Below are positions 27,913 through 60,144 of a DNA stretch of 64,000 nucleotides, in pieces. The translations under genes and the position numbers were made by a program. The notes under the pieces were generated by a model. That model was not told the DNA's origin. It did not search any database and saw nothing but the letters and a program-made list of their open reading frames with translations. Numbering within the stretch: the stretch's first letter is position 1; each line of letters starts with the position of its first letter. Origin of the DNA: Mariprofundus sp. KV (GTDB lineage Bacteria; Pseudomonadota; Zetaproteobacteria; Mariprofundales; Mariprofundaceae); the NCBI RefSeq assembly GCF_013387475.1, contig NZ_VWNB01000009.1:62001-126000 (forward strand). Reading direction: 5' to 3'.

Positions 27913-30456
27913 TTAGTGACGTATACGATTCTCATCAATCTGAATCGCTATGGTATCGTTATCCACCTGCTTGGGCAGGTTAACCTTCACCTTTGAATAG
28001 CCGGACATCTGATAGAGGCTGATGACATCATTTCTAATCTGATTGATGTCGGAACGGGAGCGTTCATCTCCGTAGTAGTCTCTGAGGCTGATCAGAATAA
28101 AGTCGGTAGGTAGCAGTTTATTGCCGCTAACCTCGAATCTATTGATGGTAAATGATTGTGATTCAATGGCCGTCCAGATATCCCGTGCCACCACCTTTTT
28201 GGTCGGCGTAATATTGCGATAGAGCTTGATGTTGGCAAAATGGTTGTCGGAAATGGGGCCTGATCTGAATTTTTTACTTTCACAGGCCAGCAGGAAGCCG
28301 GAGATGCCTGCCGCTTTTTTCAGACTTTTGAGCTGCTCCTGACGATCAAAAATATCGACAGGTACTTCGGTTGCAGAGAGTACATAGTAGATATCCCGAC
28401 CATTCATGCTCGATCGGATAATGATGGCATTGTGGTCGGGTCCGATTTTTTGCAGACGATTTACAGCATTGCCCAGCTGGGAGAAGGCACCCAGTGTAGC
28501 AAGCAGTCGATCACCGTTTAATCCATTGAGGCCACGCTGCCATTTGAGCAGGGCTGTTGCATAATCCTGCTGCTCGAAGTAGTGCCACCCATCGTTGATC
28601 CACTCCTGGGGCCCTCCTGCTTCAATCAGCGCACTCTTAAGCGCCGTATCAGTGGGATTGACAGTCTCATACACCGTCACATCCAGTTTTTGAGCTGCAA
28701 CTGAGGCAGGGGTCAAAACCTGTTGAACTTGCTCTTTCTGAGTCATCTGTTTCAGAGGAGGCTGCTTTTTTTCATTGATGGTGCCAGCACTGGCTTGAGC
28801 TGCGGCTTTTTTCTTTAATGCTGCAGCCTCCGCTTCAGCGCGGGCGCGCTGCTTTGACGCCCTCGCTCTGGCTTCGGCTTCGATCTTCAACGTTATAGCA
28901 TTAGCTTCTGCCTCTGCTCGCTCTCGCATGGCTATGGCACGCGCTTCAGCTTCTGCCTGTCGTTCTGACGCTGCCTGTTTTGCATCATTTAGAGCTTTTT
29001 GTTTGAGTGCAATAGCCTCTTTCTCAGCCTGCTGTTCCAGGGCTATGATTCTCTTTTCAGCCTCAAGCTGCTGCTTTATTGTCGCGGCTTTTGCTTCACG
29101 CTCAACTTTTTGCTTCAATGCAGCCACTTCAGCTTCGGCCTTTTTTTGCATCGCTATGGTCAGTGAATTTGCTCTGGTTTTATGTTGCATGGCTGTAACT
29201 TTTGCTTCTGCTTCTGCATGCCGCTTCATGGCACTGATTTTTTTCTCGGCTATCGACGTTTCTCTTAATGCAATGACTTGCGCCCGTGCTTCAGCCTTCT
29301 GTTTTAGAGCCGCAGCCTCTATCTCCGCATCTCTCTTCATAGCGGCGATCTTTATCGCTGTCTCTGCTTCCTGTCTCTCAATTGCAGCTTTTGCCTCTGC
29401 CTCAGCTTGCTGTTTCAGTGCTGCAGCCTCTATCTCCGCGTCTCTCTTCATGGCGGCGATCTTTGCTGCAGCCTCTCTCTTCTCTCTTTCGATTGCAGCT
29501 TTTGCCTCTGCCTCAGCTTGCTGTTTCAGTGCTGCAGCCTCTATCTCCGCGTCTCTCTTCATGGCAGCAATCTTTGCTGCAGCCTCTCTCTTCTCTCTTT
29601 CGATTGTAGCTTTTGCCTCTGCTTCAGCTTGCTGTTTTAGCGCCGCAGCCTCTTTCTGCGCAGCACTCTTCATGGCAGCAATCTTCGCAGCAGCCTCTGC
29701 CTTCTCTCTTTCGATTGCAGCTTTCGCCTCTGCCTCAGCTTGCTGTTTTAGTGCCGCAGCCTCTTTCTGCGCAGCACTCTTCATGGCAGCAATCTTCGCA
29801 GCAGCCTCTGCCTTCTCTCGTTTTGCGGTAGCTTTTGCCTCTGCTTCAGCCTGCTTTTTCAGAGCAGTAGCTTCTGCAGCTGCCTGTTGTTTCAAGGCGG
29901 CGATGCTTCTTTCTCTCTTGGCCTCTTCCCTGGCTATGGCTTCTGCATCTGCTTTTGCAGCGCGCATTTTCGCGGCTTCGGCCAGGGTCTGCTGTTTAAT
30001 TGTTGCCAGTTTTTCAGGTGACAGCGGTGATTTGAATTTGCGTGATTCATTGGCCAGCAGTTTGCCCTGCATGCCCGTTCGCTGTTTTAGTGCGGCCAGC
30101 TGGATCTGTCGGAGGTGGATATCCTTGAGCACCTCCTGCGCCGTCAGCAGGTGGTAACCTCTGCTCTCCTGTGGGTCATGAATGATGAACACTTGTTCCT
30201 GACGACCCGCCAGTTTCAGACGCTCAAGGGCGTTGGCAAATTCTGAAAAGAATCCCAGTGAACCCAGTAGTTGCTTGTCAGGCAGTCTGTTAACGCCCTC
30301 CTGCCAGATGGCGATTGCCGCTTCATGCTGGTTCTGCTCGATCTGTCTCCAGCCTTCATCCAGCCATGTCGGGCTGGTTGCATTGGCAGAAACGAAAAAG
30401 GGAACAACGAGGCAAACAGCCCCGAAAAGTGTCACGGTCACCTTTTTTATAAGCAT
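27913..30456 (-). CDS. Secreted protein: duplicated globular domain, long Ala-rich helix, POTRA-like end
   Basis: 847 residues with a signal peptide ending near ANA|TSP. A domain of about 130 residues occurs twice, at about 29-155 (WLDEGWRQIEQ, LLGSLGFFSEFANALERL, ANESRKFKS) and 612-745 (WINDGWHYFEQ, LLATLGAFSQLGNAVNRL, ACESKKFRS). Between them lies about 430 residues of Ala/Glu/Lys-rich helix built partly from 37-residue repeats. The last 80 residues (INRFEVSGNKLLP, DVISLYQMSGY, IAIQIDE) resemble a ShlB-type POTRA domain. The repeated domain begins with a TPR-like helix pair but its family is not recognised. Likely periplasmic or surface-associated; function unknown. Confidence 0.8.
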   Translation of the reverse strand: MLIKKVTVTLFGAVCLVVPFFVSANATSPTWLDEGWRQIEQNQHEAAIAIWQEGVNRLPDKQLLGSLGFFSEFANALERLKLAGRQEQVFIIHDPQESRGYHLLTAQEVLKDIHLRQIQLAALKQRTGMQGKLLANESRKFKSPLSPEKLATIKQQTLAEAAKMRAAKADAEAIAREEAKRERSIAALKQQAAAEATALKKQAEAEAKATAKREKAEAAAKIAAMKSAAQKEAAALKQQAEAEAKAAIEREKAEAAAKIAAMKSAAQKEAAALKQQAEAEAKATIEREKREAAAKIAAMKRDAEIEAAALKQQAEAEAKAAIEREKREAAAKIAAMKRDAEIEAAALKQQAEAEAKAAIERQEAETAIKIAAMKRDAEIEAAALKQKAEARAQVIALRETSIAEKKISAMKRHAEAEAKVTAMQHKTRANSLTIAMQKKAEAEVAALKQKVEREAKAATIKQQLEAEKRIIALEQQAEKEAIALKQKALNDAKQAASERQAEAEARAIAMRERAEAEANAITLKIEAEARARASKQRARAEAEAAALKKKAAAQASAGTINEKKQPPLKQMTQKEQVQQVLTPASVAAQKLDVTVYETVNPTDTALKSALIEAGGPQEWINDGWHYFEQQDYATALLKWQRGLNGLNGDRLLATLGAFSQLGNAVNRLQKIGPDHNAIIIRSSMNGRDIYYVLSATEVPVDIFDRQEQLKSLKKAAGISGFLLACESKKFRSGPISDNHFANIKLYRNITPTKKVVARDIWTAIESQSFTINRFEVSGNKLLPTDFILISLRDYYGDERSRSDINQIRNDVISLYQMSGYSKVKVNLPKQVDNDTIAIQIDENRIRH
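29266..29820 (-). repeat. 111-bp tandem repeat in the coiled-coil gene
   Basis: Five consecutive units of 111 bases (37 codons) encode variants of AAAKIAAMKRDAEIEAAAL plus a QQAEAEAKAAIERE tail. Adjacent copies are almost identical at the DNA level (for example 29401 onward and 29512 onward), which points to recent expansion. A 37-residue period is not a multiple of seven, so the helix would not be a simple heptad coiled coil. Confidence 0.88.
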
Positions 30457-32618: not shown

Positions 32619-33134
32619 TTAGCTGTTTTCAAGGGTGTCGCGGACTTTTTTCCAGCTTGTAAGTTTTTGTGTGCGATTCATAGCTGCATTGGCCGGACTG
32701 GTGGAGGGCAACAGATGTGCCCCTATCTGTTTGCATTCCGGTGACAGATTGGGCTGTACCAGCCTGCGATAAAGCTCTTCGGCCTTGCGCCCGTTAAAGA
32801 AGATAGCCCGGATCTGCGGATATGTTTTGAAAAACAGCTCAAAATCATTGGCAACAACCGATTCGATTTCAATCGCACTGTCCAGACTGCCCTGTCGCAC
32901 ACATTGATAAGCCACATCCCAAAGCGCTACGCCGCTCTCTCTGAGCAGAGCAAGCCGCTTTTCATAGGTGACTGCGGTATCGAATCCGAACAGCGCTGCC
33001 ATGATCGGCCAGAAGCTGTTTTGTGGATGTGCGTAATACTGGTTCAACAGCAGTGATTTTCGACCTGGCATCGATCCAAGTATTAGAATTTGGGCGTCAG
33101 GACTTGCAGAGCATGGGAATCCGGTGTCAGACAT
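32619..33134 (-). CDS. DNA-deoxyinosine (hypoxanthine-DNA) glycosylase, UDG superfamily
   Basis: A 171-residue member of the uracil-DNA-glycosylase superfamily, family 6. Motif 1 is ILGSMPGRKSL, followed by YYAHPQNSFWP. The C-terminal loop is LPSTSPANA, which replaces the HPSP-type loop of other families. GVALWDV and FFNGRKAEELY are also typical of hypoxanthine-DNA glycosylases. It removes deaminated adenine (hypoxanthine) from DNA in base-excision repair. It appears monocistronic, with the terminator at 33172-33205 immediately upstream insulating it from the next transcript. Confidence 0.85.
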   Translation of the reverse strand: MSDTGFPCSASPDAQILILGSMPGRKSLLLNQYYAHPQNSFWPIMAALFGFDTAVTYEKRLALLRESGVALWDVAYQCVRQGSLDSAIEIESVVANDFELFFKTYPQIRAIFFNGRKAEELYRRLVQPNLSPECKQIGAHLLPSTSPANAAMNRTQKLTSWKKVRDTLENS

Positions 33135-33171: not shown

Positions 33172-33205
33172 TGAAAAGAAAAAGGGCCCCGTATAGGGGC
33201 CCTTT
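33172..33205 (-). terminator. Strong Rho-independent terminator, minus strand
   Basis: A 10-bp perfect stem (AAAGGGCCCC at 33181-33190 and GGGGCCCTTT at 33196-33205, loop GTATA) is followed on the minus strand by TTTTTCTTTTC. The T-run is only on that side, so it ends a minus-strand transcript although no ordinary gene stops there; the nearest gene end is 236 bases away. Confidence 0.85.
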
Positions 33206-33226
33206 GTTGAACTTTGTCCGGAGGAA

Positions 33227-33271
33227 CTAAGGGAGGGGAGGGAGGGTGTTCGCCCCGGACAGGTCAAACAT
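33227..33271 (-). CDS. 14-codon ORF inside the candidate small RNA
   Basis: ATG at 33271 is preceded at five bases by GGAGGG (33277-33282) and encodes MFDLSGANTLPPLP before a TAG. The Pro-rich codons (CTC CCT CCC CTC CCT) coincide exactly with the C-rich loop, so translation would open or occupy the stem-loop. It could be a leader peptide whose Pro-Pro motif stalls ribosomes, or an accidental ORF in a structured RNA. Confidence 0.4.
   Translation of the reverse strand: MFDLSGANTLPPLP
33231..33246 (+). other. G-quadruplex motif
   Basis: GGGAGGGGAGGGAGGG holds four G-tracts with single-base loops, the most stable intramolecular G-quadruplex pattern. It lies on the strand opposite the candidate small RNA and is flanked by the TGTCCGG/CCGGACA inverted repeat. 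Confidence 0.75.
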
Positions 33272-33440
33272 TAGCGCCCTCCAGTTAGAATCAAATTAAT
33301 TGACAATGAAAACTTATTAATATTTGATAATATACTGATGACTACTTGTCGGCGCATAGTGACTTTGCGTATGAGTCAGGCAGCTAAAGAAGCTGGCGAA
33401 CCCTGTAATGGCTTGTGAAACATGCCAAAGAATGAAGTCG

Positions 33441-33905
33441 TCACTTCTTTTTACCTTTCTTCTTTGCAGATTCGCATGTCTTTTTTGAAGCTTTTTTGGC
33501 TGCTTTTGCTGCAGCTTTCGTACTTTTCTTCTCACGCTTTAATGTGGCTTTCTTTGCCGCTTTATCCGCCTTGCCAGCCTCTTTTGCAGCATGCTTGGCA
33601 GCTTTTTTCAAGGCCTTGTCAGCTTTGGCTGCTATGGCATTAGCCTTTTTACTCTTCTTGGCTGCTTTTTCTGCTGCCCGGGCCTCCTGTTTAGCGGCTT
33701 TTCCGGCAGCTTTGTCACCATCCTTTAGCACCCTGGCAGCGGCAAGTATCCTGGTGGCACGTGCTTCTCCAAATCCTGGCACAAGGCATAACTTCTTCAC
33801 TCCTCCCTTGCGCAGCGCTTTGATTGAATCAATACCGTGCTCGGCCAGCAGTGCGGCAGTGCTCTCGCCGATGCCTGATACGTCTGTAATCGAATGCTTC
33901 ATCAC
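33441..33905 (-). CDS. Helix-hairpin-helix protein with histone-H1-like Lys/Ala tail
   Basis: Residues 1-60 form a helix-hairpin-helix pair (DVSGIGESTAALLAEHGI and LVPGFGEARATRILAAAR), a DNA-binding fold found in RuvA and Rad51-type proteins. Residues about 62-154 are almost entirely Lys and Ala (AAEKAAKKSKK and similar), like the tails of bacterial histone-H1-like proteins (AlgP, Hc1). The protein is strongly basic. ATG at 33905 follows AGGAGA. Probable nucleoid-associated DNA-binding protein; no specific role can be assigned. Confidence 0.75.
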   Translation of the reverse strand: MMKHSITDVSGIGESTAALLAEHGIDSIKALRKGGVKKLCLVPGFGEARATRILAAARVLKDGDKAAGKAAKQEARAAEKAAKKSKKANAIAAKADKALKKAAKHAAKEAGKADKAAKKATLKREKKSTKAAAKAAKKASKKTCESAKKKGKKK

Positions 33906-53567: not shown

Positions 53568-55391
53568 GTGAAAGGCACCCTTCAAAAAGTAATGTTACCA
53601 ACCATCCTGGTGATTCTGGCTTACGGCTTCTGGATCAGTCCGGATTTTAAGGAGATTGCTGCAGGCGTAGCGATCTTTCTCTTTGGCATGCTGGCGCTGG
53701 AGGAGGGCTTTAAAGCTTTTACCGGTGGAACCCTCGAGAAGATTCTGAAAAAAACCACGAACAAACTATGGAAGAGTATCTCTTTCGGTGTGGTTTCAAC
53801 CAGTATCATGCAGTCCAGTTCACTGGTTTCGGTGATTACCATATCATTTCTGGGCGCAGGGTTGATTGGTCTCTCTGAGGGTATCGGCATCATTTTTGGT
53901 GCTAACCTCGGCACGACAACCGGAGCCTGGCTGGTGGCAGGCTTTGGTCTGAAGGTGAAAATCTCAGCTTATGCGATGCCGATGCTGGTGTTTGGCGTGA
54001 TCATGATATTCCAGAAGTCTCGCCACCTTAAAGGCATCGGTTATATTCTTACCGGTCTCGGTTTCCTCTTCCTCGGCATCCACCATATGAAGGAGGGGTT
54101 TGAGACCTTCAAGTCGGCGATTGATCTGGCTGAATATGCGGTAGCCGGATACCCCGGACTCTTCCTGTTTACCCTGATCGGTATCTTTGCCACAGTGGTG
54201 ATGCAGTCGAGTCATGCCACACTGGTTCTGATTATCACTGCGCTGGCTGCTCAGCAGATCTCGTACGAAAATGCTCTGGCACTGGCCATTGGTGCTAATG
54301 TGGGTACGACGATTACAGCCATACTTGGGGCTTTAAGCTCCAATGAACTGGGTAAACGACTGGCCGGCGCACACCTGATCTTCAATGTGGTTACCGGCCT
54401 GATTGCGATTGCCTTTATTCATCAACTGCTGGTGGCAGTGGACCTGATCAGTGCCTACGTCGGTATTGCTGAAGCTGACTACACATTAAAGCTGGCAGTA
54501 TTCCACACCCTGTTTAATCTGATAGGTATTGTCGTGATGATACCTTTCACCAATCATCTCGTAGGTTTTCTGGAGAGGGTGATCAAGTCGGAGCCGGATA
54601 AATATGCGCAGCCGAAATACCTGAATGAATCAGCGCTTGAATTCGCTGATGCCGCACTCGAAGCGATGCGTATGGAGACAGCTCGGGTCTATACGATGGC
54701 AACCGATGTAATAGCTAAGGGGTTATCTCTCGATAAGCAAAAGATTCTCTCTGATGCGAAACTTAAAACAGTGATTGCTCAGCATGCACGTGCGATTGAT
54801 TATGATATCGATGATGTCTATGAACATGAGATCAAACGCCTGTGCAGTGCGATTCTCGATTTTACCAACAAATTATCCTCGGCTGATCCAGTCATTGCCA
54901 GACAGATTAGTCGAATCCGTATGGCCAATCAGTCGATCCTCATTGCCCTCAAGGATGTAAAGCATCTTCAGAAAAATATGAAGCGTTATATCGCTTCGGA
55001 TAATCCGGAGATCAGTGCTGAGTATAACCGGCTGCGTCAGCGTATCGCCAAGGTGATACGCCGGCTGGAGAAGATTCGTGCCAGTGGTGAGACGAGTGTA
55101 ACCTCTATTCTTTCGCTGGATGCGCTGAAGCTGACACTGGAGAAAAATATGGGCCTGCTGCATGAGCGTATGAATGAATTGATTCGTGGTGGCAAAGTCT
55201 CAGCTGAAATGGCGATATCGTTGATGAATGACAGTAATTATACCTATAGTATTATCCATAATCTGATTCAGATTAACCATAACTATCTGAAATCCGAAGA
55301 GGGGACAGAGACAGAGGCCGAACATATGATCGCTTTGAACCGGGAAGAGATCGGCACTGTGCTGGCAGATAATCGGGAAACTGCAGAGTAA
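53568..55391 (+). CDS. Na/Pi-cotransporter family protein with PhoU-like tail, copy 1
   Basis: A 607-residue protein. The N-terminal half (to about 330) is a PNaS-type transporter with two QSS repeats (MQSSSLVSVITISFLGAG and MQSSHATLVLIITAL) and GANLGTTTGAW and GANVGTTITA. The C-terminal 250 residues are helical and PhoU-like. E. coli YjbB, a PhoU-domain Na/Pi-family protein, can export phosphate, so direction of transport is open. Start is GTG behind AAAGGAT. A small coiled-coil gene follows after 18 bases. Confidence 0.9.
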   Translation: MKGTLQKVMLPTILVILAYGFWISPDFKEIAAGVAIFLFGMLALEEGFKAFTGGTLEKILKKTTNKLWKSISFGVVSTSIMQSSSLVSVITISFLGAGLIGLSEGIGIIFGANLGTTTGAWLVAGFGLKVKISAYAMPMLVFGVIMIFQKSRHLKGIGYILTGLGFLFLGIHHMKEGFETFKSAIDLAEYAVAGYPGLFLFTLIGIFATVVMQSSHATLVLIITALAAQQISYENALALAIGANVGTTITAILGALSSNELGKRLAGAHLIFNVVTGLIAIAFIHQLLVAVDLISAYVGIAEADYTLKLAVFHTLFNLIGIVVMIPFTNHLVGFLERVIKSEPDKYAQPKYLNESALEFADAALEAMRMETARVYTMATDVIAKGLSLDKQKILSDAKLKTVIAQHARAIDYDIDDVYEHEIKRLCSAILDFTNKLSSADPVIARQISRIRMANQSILIALKDVKHLQKNMKRYIASDNPEISAEYNRLRQRIAKVIRRLEKIRASGETSVTSILSLDALKLTLEKNMGLLHERMNELIRGGKVSAEMAISLMNDSNYTYSIIHNLIQINHNYLKSEEGTETEAEHMIALNREEIGTVLADNRETAE

Positions 55392-55409
55392 AATTGAACG
55401 GGGATTAGC

Positions 55410-55682
55410 ATGAAATTTGACAATGCACTGAAAAAGAAGCTGTTGAAGAGGCTTAAATCGTACATGAATGCTGAGGCCGAGCAGCTGCAGCAGGAAGACG
55501 ATGGGCTCTCCAAAGTGCTTAAAAAGCTTAAAAAGAAAGAGAAACATCTTAAAGAGTTGATTGCGGCTGAGCGTGATGATGATGAACGCGAGATGCTGGA
55601 GCAGGAGTTGAAGGTGATTCGTTCACAACGCAAAAAGGGCATCACACTGCTCTCCTCTCTGCGTAAGAAGGGTAACAAATAA
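55410..55682 (+). CDS. Small coiled-coil protein linked to Na/Pi transporter, copy 1
   Basis: A 90-residue, highly charged helical protein without a signal peptide. It shares the core GLSKVLKKLKKKEKHLKE ... ERDDDEREMLEQEL ... SQRKKGITLL with the protein at 57724. It sits 18 bases after the first Na/Pi gene with GGGGATTAGC before the ATG. It may pair with the PhoU-like tail of the transporter or with polyphosphate; no family is recognised and this is only inferred from linkage. Confidence 0.75.
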   Translation: MKFDNALKKKLLKRLKSYMNAEAEQLQQEDDGLSKVLKKLKKKEKHLKELIAAERDDDEREMLEQELKVIRSQRKKGITLLSSLRKKGNK

Positions 55683-55776
55683 ACAGTTTGCGCTGCCACT
55701 AAACCTCTGCTTCAAACACTGTGCCTGAATTCCGGGTGCAGTTTTTTTATGAATAACAATTAAGGGTATATATAAC

Positions 55777-57600
55777 ATGAGAAATACACTGCGAAAGGTG
55801 ATTCTGCCTTCGATAATGCTGATTCTGGCTTATGGCTTCTGGGTTAGCCCTGACTTTAAAGAGATCTCTGCAGGCGTGGCGATTTTTCTATTTGGCATGC
55901 TGGCTCTTGAAGAGGGGTTCAGGGCATTCACCGGTGGTGTGCTTGAGAAGATACTTAAGAAAAGTACCGACAGAATGTGGAAAAGTCTCACCTTCGGGTT
56001 TACTGCAGCCACCGTGATGCAGTCAAGTTCTCTGGTCTCCGTTATCACCATCTCATTTTTAAGCGTGGGGCTGATTGGTCTGGTTGAGGGGCTGGGTATT
56101 GTCTTTGGTGCCAATGTCGGCACAACAACGGGTGCATGGCTGATTGCAGGCTTTGGCCTGAAGGTGAAGATCTCATCTTATGCCATGCCGATGCTGGTCT
56201 TTGGTGTGATGCTGATTTTCCAGAAATCGAAATCGATGAAGGGTGTCGGTTATATTCTGGTCGGTCTTGGTTTTCTCTTCCTCGGTATTCATCATATGAA
56301 AGAGGGCTTTGAGGCGTTCCAGAACAGTCTTGACCTGACCGCTTATGCGATGGAGGGGATAGCAGGCATCCTGGTCTTTACGCTGATCGGTATCATTGCC
56401 ACGATCATCATGCAATCGAGCCACGCCACGCTGGTGCTGATTATCACCGCACTCTCAGTGCAGCAGATCACCTATGATAATGCACTGGCACTGGCGATCG
56501 GTGCCAATGTGGGTACAACCATTACAGCGGTACTCGGTGCGCTCTCATCCAATGTTGTCGGCAAGCGACTGGCTTTGGCAGATGTGCTGTTTAAGGTGTG
56601 TGCGGGTATTGTGTTTATTGTCTTTATGGGGCCGGTAATGGGGCTTGTTGATGGTATCTCATCTGTGATTGGCCTGGCCGATGATGACTACACCATGAAG
56701 CTGGCGGTTTTCCATACCATCTTCAATGTTGCCGGTGTGATTATTATGGTGCCACTGATCAATCCGCTGATTGGACTGGTGACCCGCCTGTTCAAGTCTG
56801 AACCGGATATTCACGCTCAACCGATGTATCTCAATGAAGCATCACTTGAGTTCGGCGATACTGCCCTTGAAGCTCTGCGCAAGGAGACCGCGCGCATCTA
56901 TGAAAAAGCGATCGGTGTGATTGCCAAAGGGTTGTCTCTGGATAAGGAAGATATTCTCTCCGATGCCAAACTAAAGCAGGTGATCAGGGTGCATGGTAAA
57001 GCGGTCGAATATGATATTGATGAAGTTTACGAACATGAGATCAAGAGCCTCTGCAGTGCAATTCTTGATTATACCAACAGGCTCTCTGCCGATGAGGCCA
57101 CATCACGGCAGGTGAGCCGGATTCGTCTGGCCAATCAGTCGATCCTGATCACACTTAAAGATGTGAAACATCTGCAGAAGAATATGTTGCTCTATATCGA
57201 TTCGGAAAATCCACATATCAGTGCTGAATACAATCGTCTGCGTCAGCGCATTGCCAAGGTGATACGGAGACTGGAAAATATTCGCAGCCAGGAGGTTTCC
57301 TCCACATCGATTCTCTCTCTTGATGCCCTGAAGCTGACGCTGGAGAAAAATATGGGGCTGCTGCATGGACGTCTGGATGAGTTGATTCGCGAGGGCCACA
57401 TCTCAGCGGATATGGCGATCTCCCTGATGAATGACAGCAACTACACCTATAGCATCATTAACAGCCTGATTCAGATTAACCACAACTACCTGAAGTCTGA
57501 AGAGGGAACCGAGACAGAGGCTGAACATAGGATTGCCCTGAACAGAGAGGAGATCAATTCTGTCCTCAGTGATGAGCGGGAGGTAGCTGAGCGGCGCTGA
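55777..57600 (+). CDS. Na/Pi-cotransporter family protein with PhoU-like tail, copy 2
   Basis: A 607-residue paralogue of the protein at 53568, identical in length and closely similar along its whole length (MQSSSLVSVITISF, GANVGTTTGAW, MQSSHATLVLIITAL, then the PhoU-like helical tail ending in TEAEHRIALNREEI). Together with the preceding small gene it suggests tandem duplication of a transporter plus coiled-coil unit. No strong terminator separates it from the region upstream. Confidence 0.9.
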   Translation: MRNTLRKVILPSIMLILAYGFWVSPDFKEISAGVAIFLFGMLALEEGFRAFTGGVLEKILKKSTDRMWKSLTFGFTAATVMQSSSLVSVITISFLSVGLIGLVEGLGIVFGANVGTTTGAWLIAGFGLKVKISSYAMPMLVFGVMLIFQKSKSMKGVGYILVGLGFLFLGIHHMKEGFEAFQNSLDLTAYAMEGIAGILVFTLIGIIATIIMQSSHATLVLIITALSVQQITYDNALALAIGANVGTTITAVLGALSSNVVGKRLALADVLFKVCAGIVFIVFMGPVMGLVDGISSVIGLADDDYTMKLAVFHTIFNVAGVIIMVPLINPLIGLVTRLFKSEPDIHAQPMYLNEASLEFGDTALEALRKETARIYEKAIGVIAKGLSLDKEDILSDAKLKQVIRVHGKAVEYDIDEVYEHEIKSLCSAILDYTNRLSADEATSRQVSRIRLANQSILITLKDVKHLQKNMLLYIDSENPHISAEYNRLRQRIAKVIRRLENIRSQEVSSTSILSLDALKLTLEKNMGLLHGRLDELIREGHISADMAISLMNDSNYTYSIINSLIQINHNYLKSEEGTETEAEHRIALNREEINSVLSDEREVAERR

Positions 57601-57630
57601 TACCACACTAACCACACACCTCTTAGACCA

Positions 57631-57664
57631 TGGTCATACAGATGTCACAATTGAGTTGTAGCAT
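57631..57664 (+). promoter_or_regulatory. Pho box and -10 upstream of small coiled-coil gene 2
   Basis: Half-sites TGGTCAT (57631-57637) and ATGTCAC (57642-57648) are spaced 11 bases apart. A -10 element TAGCAT (57659-57664) starts 10 bases after the second half-site, the same geometry as E. coli phoA. There is no -35, as expected for a PhoB-dependent promoter. Confidence 0.7.
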
Positions 57665-57723
57665 CTATGGTCTACAGTGATGGGCACACTTATGCGGTAA
57701 GATGATCGCTGAGGGGGGTGGGG

Positions 57724-57978
57724 ATGACGCTGAAGAAGCTACTAACACGACTTAACTTTTTTGATACTCATGCCTTACAGCAGAGGGAGTCAGAAGAGGG
57801 ACTCAGCAAGGTGATCGAAAAGCTTCAGGAGAAAGAGAGGCAGCTCAGGGTAACGATAAGCCTGGAGAGAGATGAAGAGGAGCGCGAACTGTTGCAACAG
57901 GAGCTGAGTATTGTTGTTTCACAGACCCGAAAAGGTACTGAACTGCTTGCCAGGATTCGAGAAGAGGGAGACTCCTGA
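57724..57978 (+). CDS. Small coiled-coil protein, copy 2, probably Pho-regulated
   Basis: An 84-residue paralogue of the protein at 55410: GLSKVIEKLQEKERQLR, ERDEEERELLQQEL, SQTRKGTELLARIREEG. The ATG at 57724 follows GAGGGGG; a GTG at 57718 is less likely. Unlike copy 1 it has its own Pho-box promoter and its own terminator (58008-58038), so it is expressed alone under phosphate limitation. Cytoplasmic, helical, function unknown. Confidence 0.75.
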   Translation: MTLKKLLTRLNFFDTHALQQRESEEGLSKVIEKLQEKERQLRVTISLERDEEERELLQQELSIVVSQTRKGTELLARIREEGDS

Positions 57979-58007
57979 GTCAATCAGAGAGAAAAACGGA
58001 GTGAAGT

Positions 58008-58038
58008 AAAAAGCGCGCGGATATCCGGGCGCTTTTTT
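58008..58038 (+). terminator. Rho-independent terminator
   Basis: AAAAAGCGC with CGG, loop ATAT, CCG with GCGCTTTTT (one G/G mismatch) ending in a T-run to 58038. It closes the small coiled-coil gene and isolates the Pho-box promoter of the DUF47-pit operon. Confidence 0.85.
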
Positions 58039-58102
58039 GTTTCCGGGGCAAGCGATGGTCTGCTCTCCAACGGTTGTCACATTTGTCATGTTTATGACTC
58101 AT

Positions 58103-58136
58103 ATGTCACACAGATGTCACAATCGGCCTGTATCAT
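58103..58136 (+). promoter_or_regulatory. Pho box and -10 of the DUF47-pit operon
   Basis: Two identical half-sites ATGTCAC (58103-58109 and 58114-58120) are spaced 11 bases apart. TATCAT (58131-58136) follows after exactly 10 bases. Additional TTGTCAC (58074-58080) and TTGTCAT (58083-58089) copies lie just upstream. This is the strongest regulatory site in the window and predicts PhoB activation at low phosphate. Confidence 0.8.
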
Positions 58137-58185
58137 CAATCCGTTTTAACGCATAAGGCCGCAAGGCCAACAATCGGGAGTGAAT

Positions 58186-58866
58186 ATGGTTAGAAGAAGT
58201 CCAATTTCAAATATGTTTGCCGGTTCGCCGGTCAAGCCGCTGCAGGAGCATATCGGCAAGGTTCATGAGGCTGTGAAGAAACTCGAACCATTTTTCAAGG
58301 CTGTGATCGATAAAGATTACGACCAGGTGGCCGTTCTGGAGCGGGAGATTCACAGGATTGAGGTTGATGCGGATACTTTGAAGCATGAACTGCGTATTAA
58401 CCTGCCCAACTCCCTGTTTATGCCGATGCCGCGTGAGCGCATTCTGGATATTGTGACCCATCAGGATCATCTCGCCAACAGGGTCAAGGAAGTAACCAGT
58501 GTGGTTAATAGCCGCAAAATGCAGATTCCGGATGAGATCGCAGAGCTGCTTACACAATTTGTACTGGTCAATATCGCAGCTTCCCGGCAGGCGAAAAGGA
58601 TCGTCAATGAACTTGATGAGCTGGTGGAGGTCGGTTTTCGTGGCCGCGAGGTCACCAGTGTTGAGGAGATGATCGATGAGCTGCATAACATCGAATATGA
58701 GGCTGATAAACTCGGTCATCAGATCAATAATGCACTGTTTGTGATTGAGAAGAGTATGGATCCGATTGATGCGATATTTCTGTACCGCATGATTCGGGAG
58801 CTCGGTGCTGTGGCCGATGCTGCACAGCGCGTTGGCGCTCGTCTCGAACTGTTACTGGCACGATAA
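58186..58866 (+). CDS. DUF47 PhoU-like regulator of Pit transporter
   Basis: A 226-residue helical protein of the DUF47/TIGR00153 family (PhoU-related), with the conserved EREIHRIEVDADTLKHELR and ELHNIEYEADKLGHQI, each carrying the acidic metal-binding pattern of PhoU-like bundles. Such proteins are commonly encoded beside Pit transporters and are thought to control them. The ATG at 58186 follows GGGAG. pit starts 12 bases after the stop, and the pair is driven by the Pho-box promoter. Confidence 0.9.
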   Translation: MVRRSPISNMFAGSPVKPLQEHIGKVHEAVKKLEPFFKAVIDKDYDQVAVLEREIHRIEVDADTLKHELRINLPNSLFMPMPRERILDIVTHQDHLANRVKEVTSVVNSRKMQIPDEIAELLTQFVLVNIAASRQAKRIVNELDELVEVGFRGREVTSVEEMIDELHNIEYEADKLGHQINNALFVIEKSMDPIDAIFLYRMIRELGAVADAAQRVGARLELLLAR

Positions 58867-58878
58867 GGGGAGAAAATC

Positions 58879-60144
58879 GTGGAAATTCTTGTTGCAAATT
58901 CAACTATATTAATTGGCATGGCCGTTGTTTTCGGCCTCTTCATGGCCTGGGGCATCGGTGCGAATGATGTTGCCAACGCTATGGGAACATCGGTCGGCTC
59001 AGGTGCGCTGACCTTTAAGCAGGCGGTGATTATTGCTGCCATATTCGAGTGTGCCGGTGCTGTTCTTGCCGGTGGTGAAGTAACCAAAACCATCCGAAAG
59101 GGCATTGTTGATGTCTCATCACTGGGTAGTACGCCCGAGCTTCTGGTTTACGGCATGCTGGCATCCCTGCTCGCTGCAGGCATCTGGCTGCTGGTTGCTA
59201 CCCGTATGGGCTGGCCTGTTTCCACCACGCACTCCATTGTCGGTGCTATCGTCGGTTTCGGCGCTGTCGGTATCGGCATGGAAGCTGTGCAGTGGGGCAA
59301 GGTAGGTACTATTGCCATGAGCTGGGTTACCTCGCCGCTGATGGCCGGTGTGATTGCCTTTGCTCTTTTCAGAAGTATCCAGAAATTGATTATCGATACT
59401 GAAGAGCCGCTTGAAAGAGCCAAGAAATATGTACCTTATTACATCTTCATGGTTGGTTTTATCATGGCGATGGTGACCCTGCTTAAGGGGCTGAAACATG
59501 TCGGTGTGAATCTGCCGTTTGACCAGAATATGATGTATGCCGCGCTTATCGGTGTGGTCTTTGCGGTTATCGGAACGCTCATGATCAAGCGACTGAAGTT
59601 CTCCAAGAAAGAGGATAAGAAGTTCCATTATACCAATATGGAGAAGATCTTCGGCGTATTGATGATCTTTACAGCCATTGCCATGGCCTTTGCCCACGGC
59701 TCCAACGATGTGGCCAATGCCATTGGTCCGGTTGCAGCCGTTGTCGGCATTGTCAGCAGTGCCGGTGAAATTGCATCCAAGTCGGCTACACCTGTATGGA
59801 TTCTGCTGCTTGGCGGTGGCGGTATTGTCTTTGGTTTGGCGACCTATGGTCATAAGGTGATTGCAACCGTTGGTTCCGGTATCAGTGAGCTGACACCAAG
59901 TCGCGGTTTTGCTGCAACACTTGCTGCAGCCACGACCGTTGTTGTGGCTTCCGGCACAGGTCTGCCGATCTCTACCACGCATACGCTGGTAGGTGCGGTG
60001 ATCGGTGTTGGTCTGGCGCGAGGTATCGGTGCTTTGAATATGGGGGTGATCCAGACAATCTTCCTGTCATGGATCATCACGCTTCCGGCAGGTGCGATTC
60101 TGTCGATCCTGTTCTTCTTCTTCTTCAAAGGCGCATTCAGCTAA
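58879..60144 (+). CDS. pit: PitA-type inorganic phosphate transporter
   Basis: A 421-residue inner-membrane permease with about ten to twelve helices. It has the duplicated family signatures GIGANDVANAMGTSVGSGALT (near 32) and AHGSNDVANAIGPVAAV (near 272), and paired WPVSTTHSIVGAI and LPISTTHTLVGAV motifs. Pit proteins take up metal-phosphate complexes with protons. Start is GTG behind AAGGGGAG. In E. coli pit is not Pho-induced, whereas here a Pho-box promoter lies upstream of the operon. Confidence 0.93.
   Translation: MEILVANSTILIGMAVVFGLFMAWGIGANDVANAMGTSVGSGALTFKQAVIIAAIFECAGAVLAGGEVTKTIRKGIVDVSSLGSTPELLVYGMLASLLAAGIWLLVATRMGWPVSTTHSIVGAIVGFGAVGIGMEAVQWGKVGTIAMSWVTSPLMAGVIAFALFRSIQKLIIDTEEPLERAKKYVPYYIFMVGFIMAMVTLLKGLKHVGVNLPFDQNMMYAALIGVVFAVIGTLMIKRLKFSKKEDKKFHYTNMEKIFGVLMIFTAIAMAFAHGSNDVANAIGPVAAVVGIVSSAGEIASKSATPVWILLLGGGGIVFGLATYGHKVIATVGSGISELTPSRGFAATLAAATTVVVASGTGLPISTTHTLVGAVIGVGLARGIGALNMGVIQTIFLSWIITLPAGAILSILFFFFFKGAFS

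Follow-up and report, generated by a model that had tools for sequence, protein, structure and literature searches.

The alpha-r14 or NfeR1 small RNAs (sRNAs) of the Rhizobiales (SmelA075 and SmelA099) act in trans and independently of Hfq (PMC10746234, PMC3927594), with the NfeR1 loop blocking the ribosome binding site (PMC10746234). In Xanthomonas, the C-rich loops of sX13 repress G-rich leaders without Hfq (PMC3771888), and those of the mycobacterial 6C or B11 RNA repress leaders with G-tracts in hosts that have no known Hfq (PMC10470900). Here we describe a locus from Mariprofundus sp. KV, lying in a 64,000-nucleotide stretch of DNA (the window, to which coordinates refer unless a contig or locus is named), which appears to work like these RNAs yet to belong to a separate family.

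The family described here and alpha-r14/NfeR1 both have a conserved anti-Shine-Dalgarno loop motif on highly variable stems, a pattern seen in the 84–85 copies read. However, the rhizobial RNAs have three or four hairpins, each with an unpaired nine-base CCUCCUCCC, whereas here there is one C-rich hairpin plus a terminator and a longer CCCUCCC-type loop (CCCUCCCUCCCCUCCC in the window copy). A second, small hairpin, which may display UCCUCC, is present in some paralogues. The family also differs in being from another class, in its promoter control and in having no Rfam match, and it lacks the multi-loop CCUCCUCCC arrangement by which alpha-r14 is defined. Similarly, sX13 has C-rich apical loops, G-rich motifs near the starts of its target mRNAs and no need of Hfq (PMC3771888), but it is a 115-nt RNA whose three stems bear short CCCC loops, and it is not multi-copy as here, and we found no sequence or promoter common to the two. 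The 6C/B11 RNAs have C-rich loops like those of our family (PMC10470900), but with two loops per RNA and in the Actinobacteria, and none of our copies matches them in Rfam.

An earlier note on this DNA had proposed an undescribed small RNA at this position. The window and 18 copy-bearing loci fall in no Rfam family at the gathering score, the alpha-r14/NfeR1 family does not match the window even at E ≤ 5, and no description of a zetaproteobacterial sRNA was found in the literature searched, which leaves out most subscription journals. Two general traits of C-rich-loop, Hfq-independent sRNAs are found here, namely a conserved single-stranded C-rich loop on a compensatorily conserved stem and, as judged by sequence conservation, an own promoter and an intrinsic terminator.

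Layout of the sRNA locus

The sRNA gene, which is complete by sequence, occupies 33321–33173 of the minus strand. In it a four-repeat box and a −10 element precede a stem that bears a C-rich loop, and a terminator follows; the features are listed below (the basis of each assignment is given in brackets).

33284–33321, minus strand: predicted activator box of four direct repeats in 11-bp steps (alignment of 85 copies and whole-genome pattern scan)
33321–33317, 33310–33306, 33299–33295 and 33288–33284, minus strand: box repeat units ATTAA, TTCAT, TTAAT and CTAAC, respectively
33268–33273, minus strand: −10 element TAATGT, family consensus TAWWGTT (column frequencies in the aligned promoters)
33173–33261, minus strand: predicted sRNA transcript of about 85 nt (start placed by its distance from the −10 element and end by the terminator)
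33248–33261, minus strand: 5′ arm of the main stem, TGTCCGGGGCGAAC (fold and covariation)
33228–33247, minus strand: C-rich loop of 20 nt, ACCCTCCCTCCCCTCCCTTA (equivalent to CCCUCCCUCCCCUCCC), the presumed anti-Shine-Dalgarno seed (loop C+T fraction across copies)
33215–33227, minus strand: 3′ arm of the main stem, GTTCCTCCGGACA (fold and covariation)
33173–33205, minus strand: intrinsic terminator with a 10-bp stem, 5-nt loop and T-rich tail (letters and helix conservation)

The minus-strand letters of the box (33321–33284) are ATTAATAAGTTTTCATTGTCAATTAATTTGATTCTAAC. The stem TGTCCGG/CCGGACA and the loop CCCTCCCTCCCCTCCC it presents, both claimed by the earlier note, can be read in the letters of the minus strand, and the strong terminator said to follow is also there, with the 10-bp stem AAAGGGCCCC/GGGGCCCTTT placed before TTCTTTT (in full, from 33205 to about 33174, AAAGGGCCCC-TATAC-GGGGCCCTTT-TTCTTTT). 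A gene check of the locus bore out that the region holds no ordinary gene. In proposing an RNA the note was right, if understated. It missed the promoter box, the paralogues and a short open reading frame that overlaps the element by accident. The fold energy of −43.1 kcal/mol compares with −33.0 kcal/mol for shuffled sequences (z −2.96), which by itself is moderate evidence only.

The gene is flanked by a uracil-DNA-glycosylase-like gene (32619–33134) on the same strand as the sRNA, which starts 45 nt downstream, and by a gene for a helix-hairpin-helix protein (33441–33905). We also note that 27913–30456 on the minus strand encodes an 847-aa protein with a long, heptad-like repeat region rich in alanine, glutamate and lysine (AEAEAKAAIEREKAEAAAKIAAMK...).

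Conservation and covariation across the class

In a DNA search the element turned up in many congeneric genomes, and the genome of the window proved to have a second paralogue. A covariance model built from 21 copies (R1) gave matches at E ≤ 0.01 in 69 of the 78 class genomes, as many as eight in a single genome and in some genomes in tandem, and a refined model (R2) was used to compare the class with outgroups. With R2, the covariance search of the Zetaproteobacteria that the earlier note had recommended found the family in 72 of the 78 genomes (71 with a best E ≤ 5.7e-7), usually with one to eight copies each, and the six genomes without a match are all less than 90% complete. None of 320 other Pseudomonadota reached 1e-5 (best E 1.6e-5); matches near E 0.01 are frequent outside the class, so low scores there are meaningless. 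The window copy was matched by the covariance model over 33264–33179 at 88.8 bits.

We read 85 copies and analysed pair changes in 84 of them, using an alignment fitted to the model. All 21 modelled pairs had changed on both sides, with 275 doubly changed cells compared to 68 in shuffles, and 96.1% of cells were paired compared to at most 56% when the alignment was slid. In an unfitted MAFFT alignment of 21 copies there were 11 doubly changed pairs, a number equalled in none of 500 shuffles. The terminator helix is conserved, with both-side changes in 9 of 9 modelled pairs. The main stems diverge widely (e.g. TGTCCGGAGC/CTCCGGACA, GTCTGGTGTC/GACATCAGAC and CTTACGCATC/TGCGTAAG), and despite this the loop has a C+T fraction of 0.83–1.00 in all copies, being 12–28 nt in length across the family and of the CCCUCCC type. 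Covariation establishes the structure of the family, and the reality of the element is settled because 84 copies keep both helices through compensatory changes; the earlier note had staked its proposal on stem and loop being conserved in relatives, and they strongly are, throughout the class.

We searched 84,980 species genomes with a pattern combining the loop and the promoter box and found 51 matching stretches, 48 of them in Mariprofundus, Ghiorsea and other Zetaproteobacteria or in uncultured proteobacterial MAGs of the class. The remaining three (from Aromatoleum, a Prevotellaceae MAG and a Nitrospirae MAG) were rejected as chance matches, as by eye they have neither the family stem nor the T-tract terminator. 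We take the locus to be one gene of a real and apparently undescribed class-wide sRNA family.

Paralogues and genomic neighbourhood

The window's own genome has at least five family copies carrying the box (C28:95179–95264, which is the window copy, C25:94108–94212, C25:91057–91168, C24:137136–137219 and C24:189742–189822). Two weaker siblings in the same genome (G000) have no box (C24:137330–137410, locus L081 4331–4411, and C21:37037–37115, locus L083 3538–3616); these are hairpin-plus-terminator RNAs which score with the model and have a different promoter, the first having an orthologue at L097 2765, and they may be members of a second regulon. Copies that we refer to as type B (L036 6109–6213 and relatives in L032, L033, L020 and L022) have an extra small hairpin between the main stem and the terminator, which displays UCCUCC again in several relatives, and directly downstream of them is a conserved stretch (TTTCTTTCT...GGCTATAAACTGCCGCC).

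The most frequent neighbour is a gene for an AcrB-type RND pump, which adjoins 29 copies. Mostly the sRNA follows directly on the 3′ side of this gene in the same orientation, and the gap is often an identical 54 nt (e.g. L081, L097, L109, L132 and L133). This site may be the ancestral location. Further neighbours include Tex (10 copies) and a Na/H exchanger (8 copies).

Promoter box and candidate regulator

When aligned on the RNA start, 80 of the 85 copies have at least 12 of the 14 positions of TTMAY-N6-TTMAY-N6-NTMAY (57 of them perfectly), and in these the box, the −10 element and the RNA start keep a constant spacing. A fourth repeat (ATDAA) is found 11 bp further upstream in the aligned promoters, and the −10 TAWWGTT about 10 bp downstream. 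Five copies have no good box, so a minority would use another promoter. Across the whole of the window's own genome, the strict box pattern found four sites, all of them sRNA promoters, and none in a reversed control, and a four-repeat pattern allowing up to two mismatches added a fifth sRNA promoter at one mismatch and six further sites, all at two mismatches (compared to three sites in the control). At 0–1 mismatch the box sites are therefore exactly the five sRNA promoters, and so the regulator seems to be dedicated to these sRNAs.

Boxes that replace the −35 element are typical of OmpR-family response regulators, and the regulator here is probably of the OmpR type. There are only three such proteins encoded in the genome: PhoB, a CopR/CusR-type protein that passes the cut-off for heavy-metal regulators, and a protein most similar to CpxR, whose gene has genes for a CpxA-like kinase and a Spy/CpxP-like protein next to it. 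A Pho box had been suggested by the pst operon at the right end of the window; this was rejected, and PhoB is unlikely to be the regulator, because the repeats in the Pho boxes of pstS and the porins read TGTCAY, unlike the TTMAY of the sRNA box. Next to the CpxR-like gene the repeats read TTTAC, so that T takes the place of the A or C found in the sRNA box. On these motifs the candidates would be the CopR/CusR-type protein, the CpxR-like protein or some regulator from a different family. In the loci retrieved, none of the three types of response regulator is encoded beside an sRNA copy, apart from a single weak and partial match in L183.

Among published motifs the cre/blr-tag, TTCACn6TTCAC, comes closest (PMC3660660). 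The repeats described here (TTMAY-N6-TTMAY) share core and step with TTCACnnnnnnTTCAC of this CreB/BlrA regulon (PMC3660660), although there are two repeats in the tag and four here. A search for a CreB orthologue gave scores of 190, 166 and 164 bits for the three OmpR-type regulators of the genome, none of which passes the cut-off of 273.

Two observations concern the phosphate genes themselves. Long imperfect direct repeats (GCCCTGAATGGGTGGAGTGCAGGA...ACAATTGTACAGGATAGTACAATTG) lie upstream of pstS at L080 1821–2450, between a porin gene and pstS, and window positions 53568–60144 on the plus strand are a dense phosphate-uptake region, with two tandem Na/Pi-cotransporter-like genes and a Pit-type transporter (by sequence) beside a phoU–pst cluster in which PhoU was confirmed.

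Alternative explanations

Three alternatives would deny that the locus is a stand-alone RNA gene. It could be a cis-acting leader or attenuator of the uracil-DNA-glycosylase-like gene (33134–32619), with the terminator as a switch, since that gene starts so closely downstream on the same strand and is placed likewise in one further genome (L044); yet the gene downstream varies among copies and is convergent in 41 of 83, for which reason we take the copies to be stand-alone genes and reject the reading as very improbable, and the box accompanies the RNA at whatever site. Even less credit is due to a short coding gene for a leader peptide or small protein (ATG TTT GAC CTG ... TAG, 14 codons, MFDLSGANTLPPLP), which in the window has a good ribosome-binding site with GGAGG in front and is kept in the close relative L008. 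Its ATG, however, falls within the conserved −10 (TAATG), ahead of the predicted RNA start, and is missing from many copies. The GGAGG shows no conservation and the loop lengths cover all residues modulo 3, so the reading frame was rejected as an accidental overlap. We find it just as hard to credit a dispersed repeat or DNA-level element (a plus-strand G-quadruplex, GGGAGGGGAGGGAGGG): there are four G-runs on the plus strand and several dispersed copies, but the covariation is of the RNA type and includes a terminator with a directional T-tract, the promoter stands at a constant spacing and individual copies are in stable synteny.

A further possibility accepts the RNA but makes its loop a decoy or sponge that captures a protein or an RNA component, ribosomal or otherwise, instead of mRNA leaders. 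The long loop made purely of C and U, the presence of up to eight copies per genome and the weak general pairing signal at start regions fit this, but all of the characterised C-rich-loop RNAs we found act on G-rich mRNA sites, and G-rich sites near starts are present in the genome itself. We regard a decoy or sponge as unlikely, though less so than the three readings above.

Hfq, G-rich sites and a model of action

Instead, we think it likely that these are trans-acting, Hfq-independent sRNAs, activated through the box, whose C-rich loops act on G-rich Shine-Dalgarno leaders and whose siblings are additive. The Hfq Pfam model matched nothing above cut-off in any of the 78 Zetaproteobacteria genomes, a search by which a very divergent Hfq could be missed, and gave one sub-threshold match (in G062); in the control, E. 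coli and other Hfq carriers were detected and Synechococcus was not. The pattern AGGGAGGG-N3-12-ATG occurs at 11 sites in the window's own genome compared to one in the reversed control, and several AGGGAGGG sites are at plausible starts, including those of a hemerythrin-GGDEF protein, a homoserine O-succinyltransferase and a GH130 phosphorylase. Predicted duplexes between the loop and three such leaders are of −18 to −23 kcal/mol. Pairing of the loop to 48 start regions averaged −6.2 kcal/mol compared to −5.4 kcal/mol in coding sequence, a weak excess obtained with crude start calls, which suggests that the candidate targets are a subset of mRNAs rather than all of them.

We infer that the gene is transcribed, that an OmpR-type protein activates it and that the RNA represses by anti-Shine-Dalgarno pairing independently of Hfq, the pairing being suggested by the loop sequence and the characterised analogues. 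From the promoter architecture, an OmpR-family response regulator would bind the four tandem 11-bp repeats standing in for a −35 element and activate transcription from the −10 some 10 bp downstream. In the resulting RNA of about 85 nt, ended by the intrinsic terminator, the stem would keep the 12–28-nt CCCUCCC-type loop single-stranded, so that it could pair with G-rich, GGGAGGG-type Shine-Dalgarno regions in target mRNAs, blocking ribosome binding without Hfq. The paralogues are probably additive siblings under one signal, because box and loop are common to them and their stems differ.

We are more doubtful, and put forward tentatively, that the whole class has lost Hfq and has a two-component system whose direct regulon is essentially sibling anti-Shine-Dalgarno sRNAs. 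If this were true, a transcription factor would exert nearly all of its output after transcription, by way of a generic mimic of the 16S anti-Shine-Dalgarno sequence.

The family is apparently an independent case of C-rich anti-Shine-Dalgarno loops in a further bacterial class. In Rfam and the literature searched no sRNA family of these ecologically important iron oxidisers was found, and no Hfq was detected in the class. Being multi-copy and having a promoter code of its own, the proposed sRNA regulon allows their RNA-based regulation to be tested directly in Mariprofundus ferrooxydans PV-1, which can be cultured. What we describe looks like an undescribed gene-control system of the iron-oxidising Zetaproteobacteria, in which C-rich loops could cover ribosome-binding sites.
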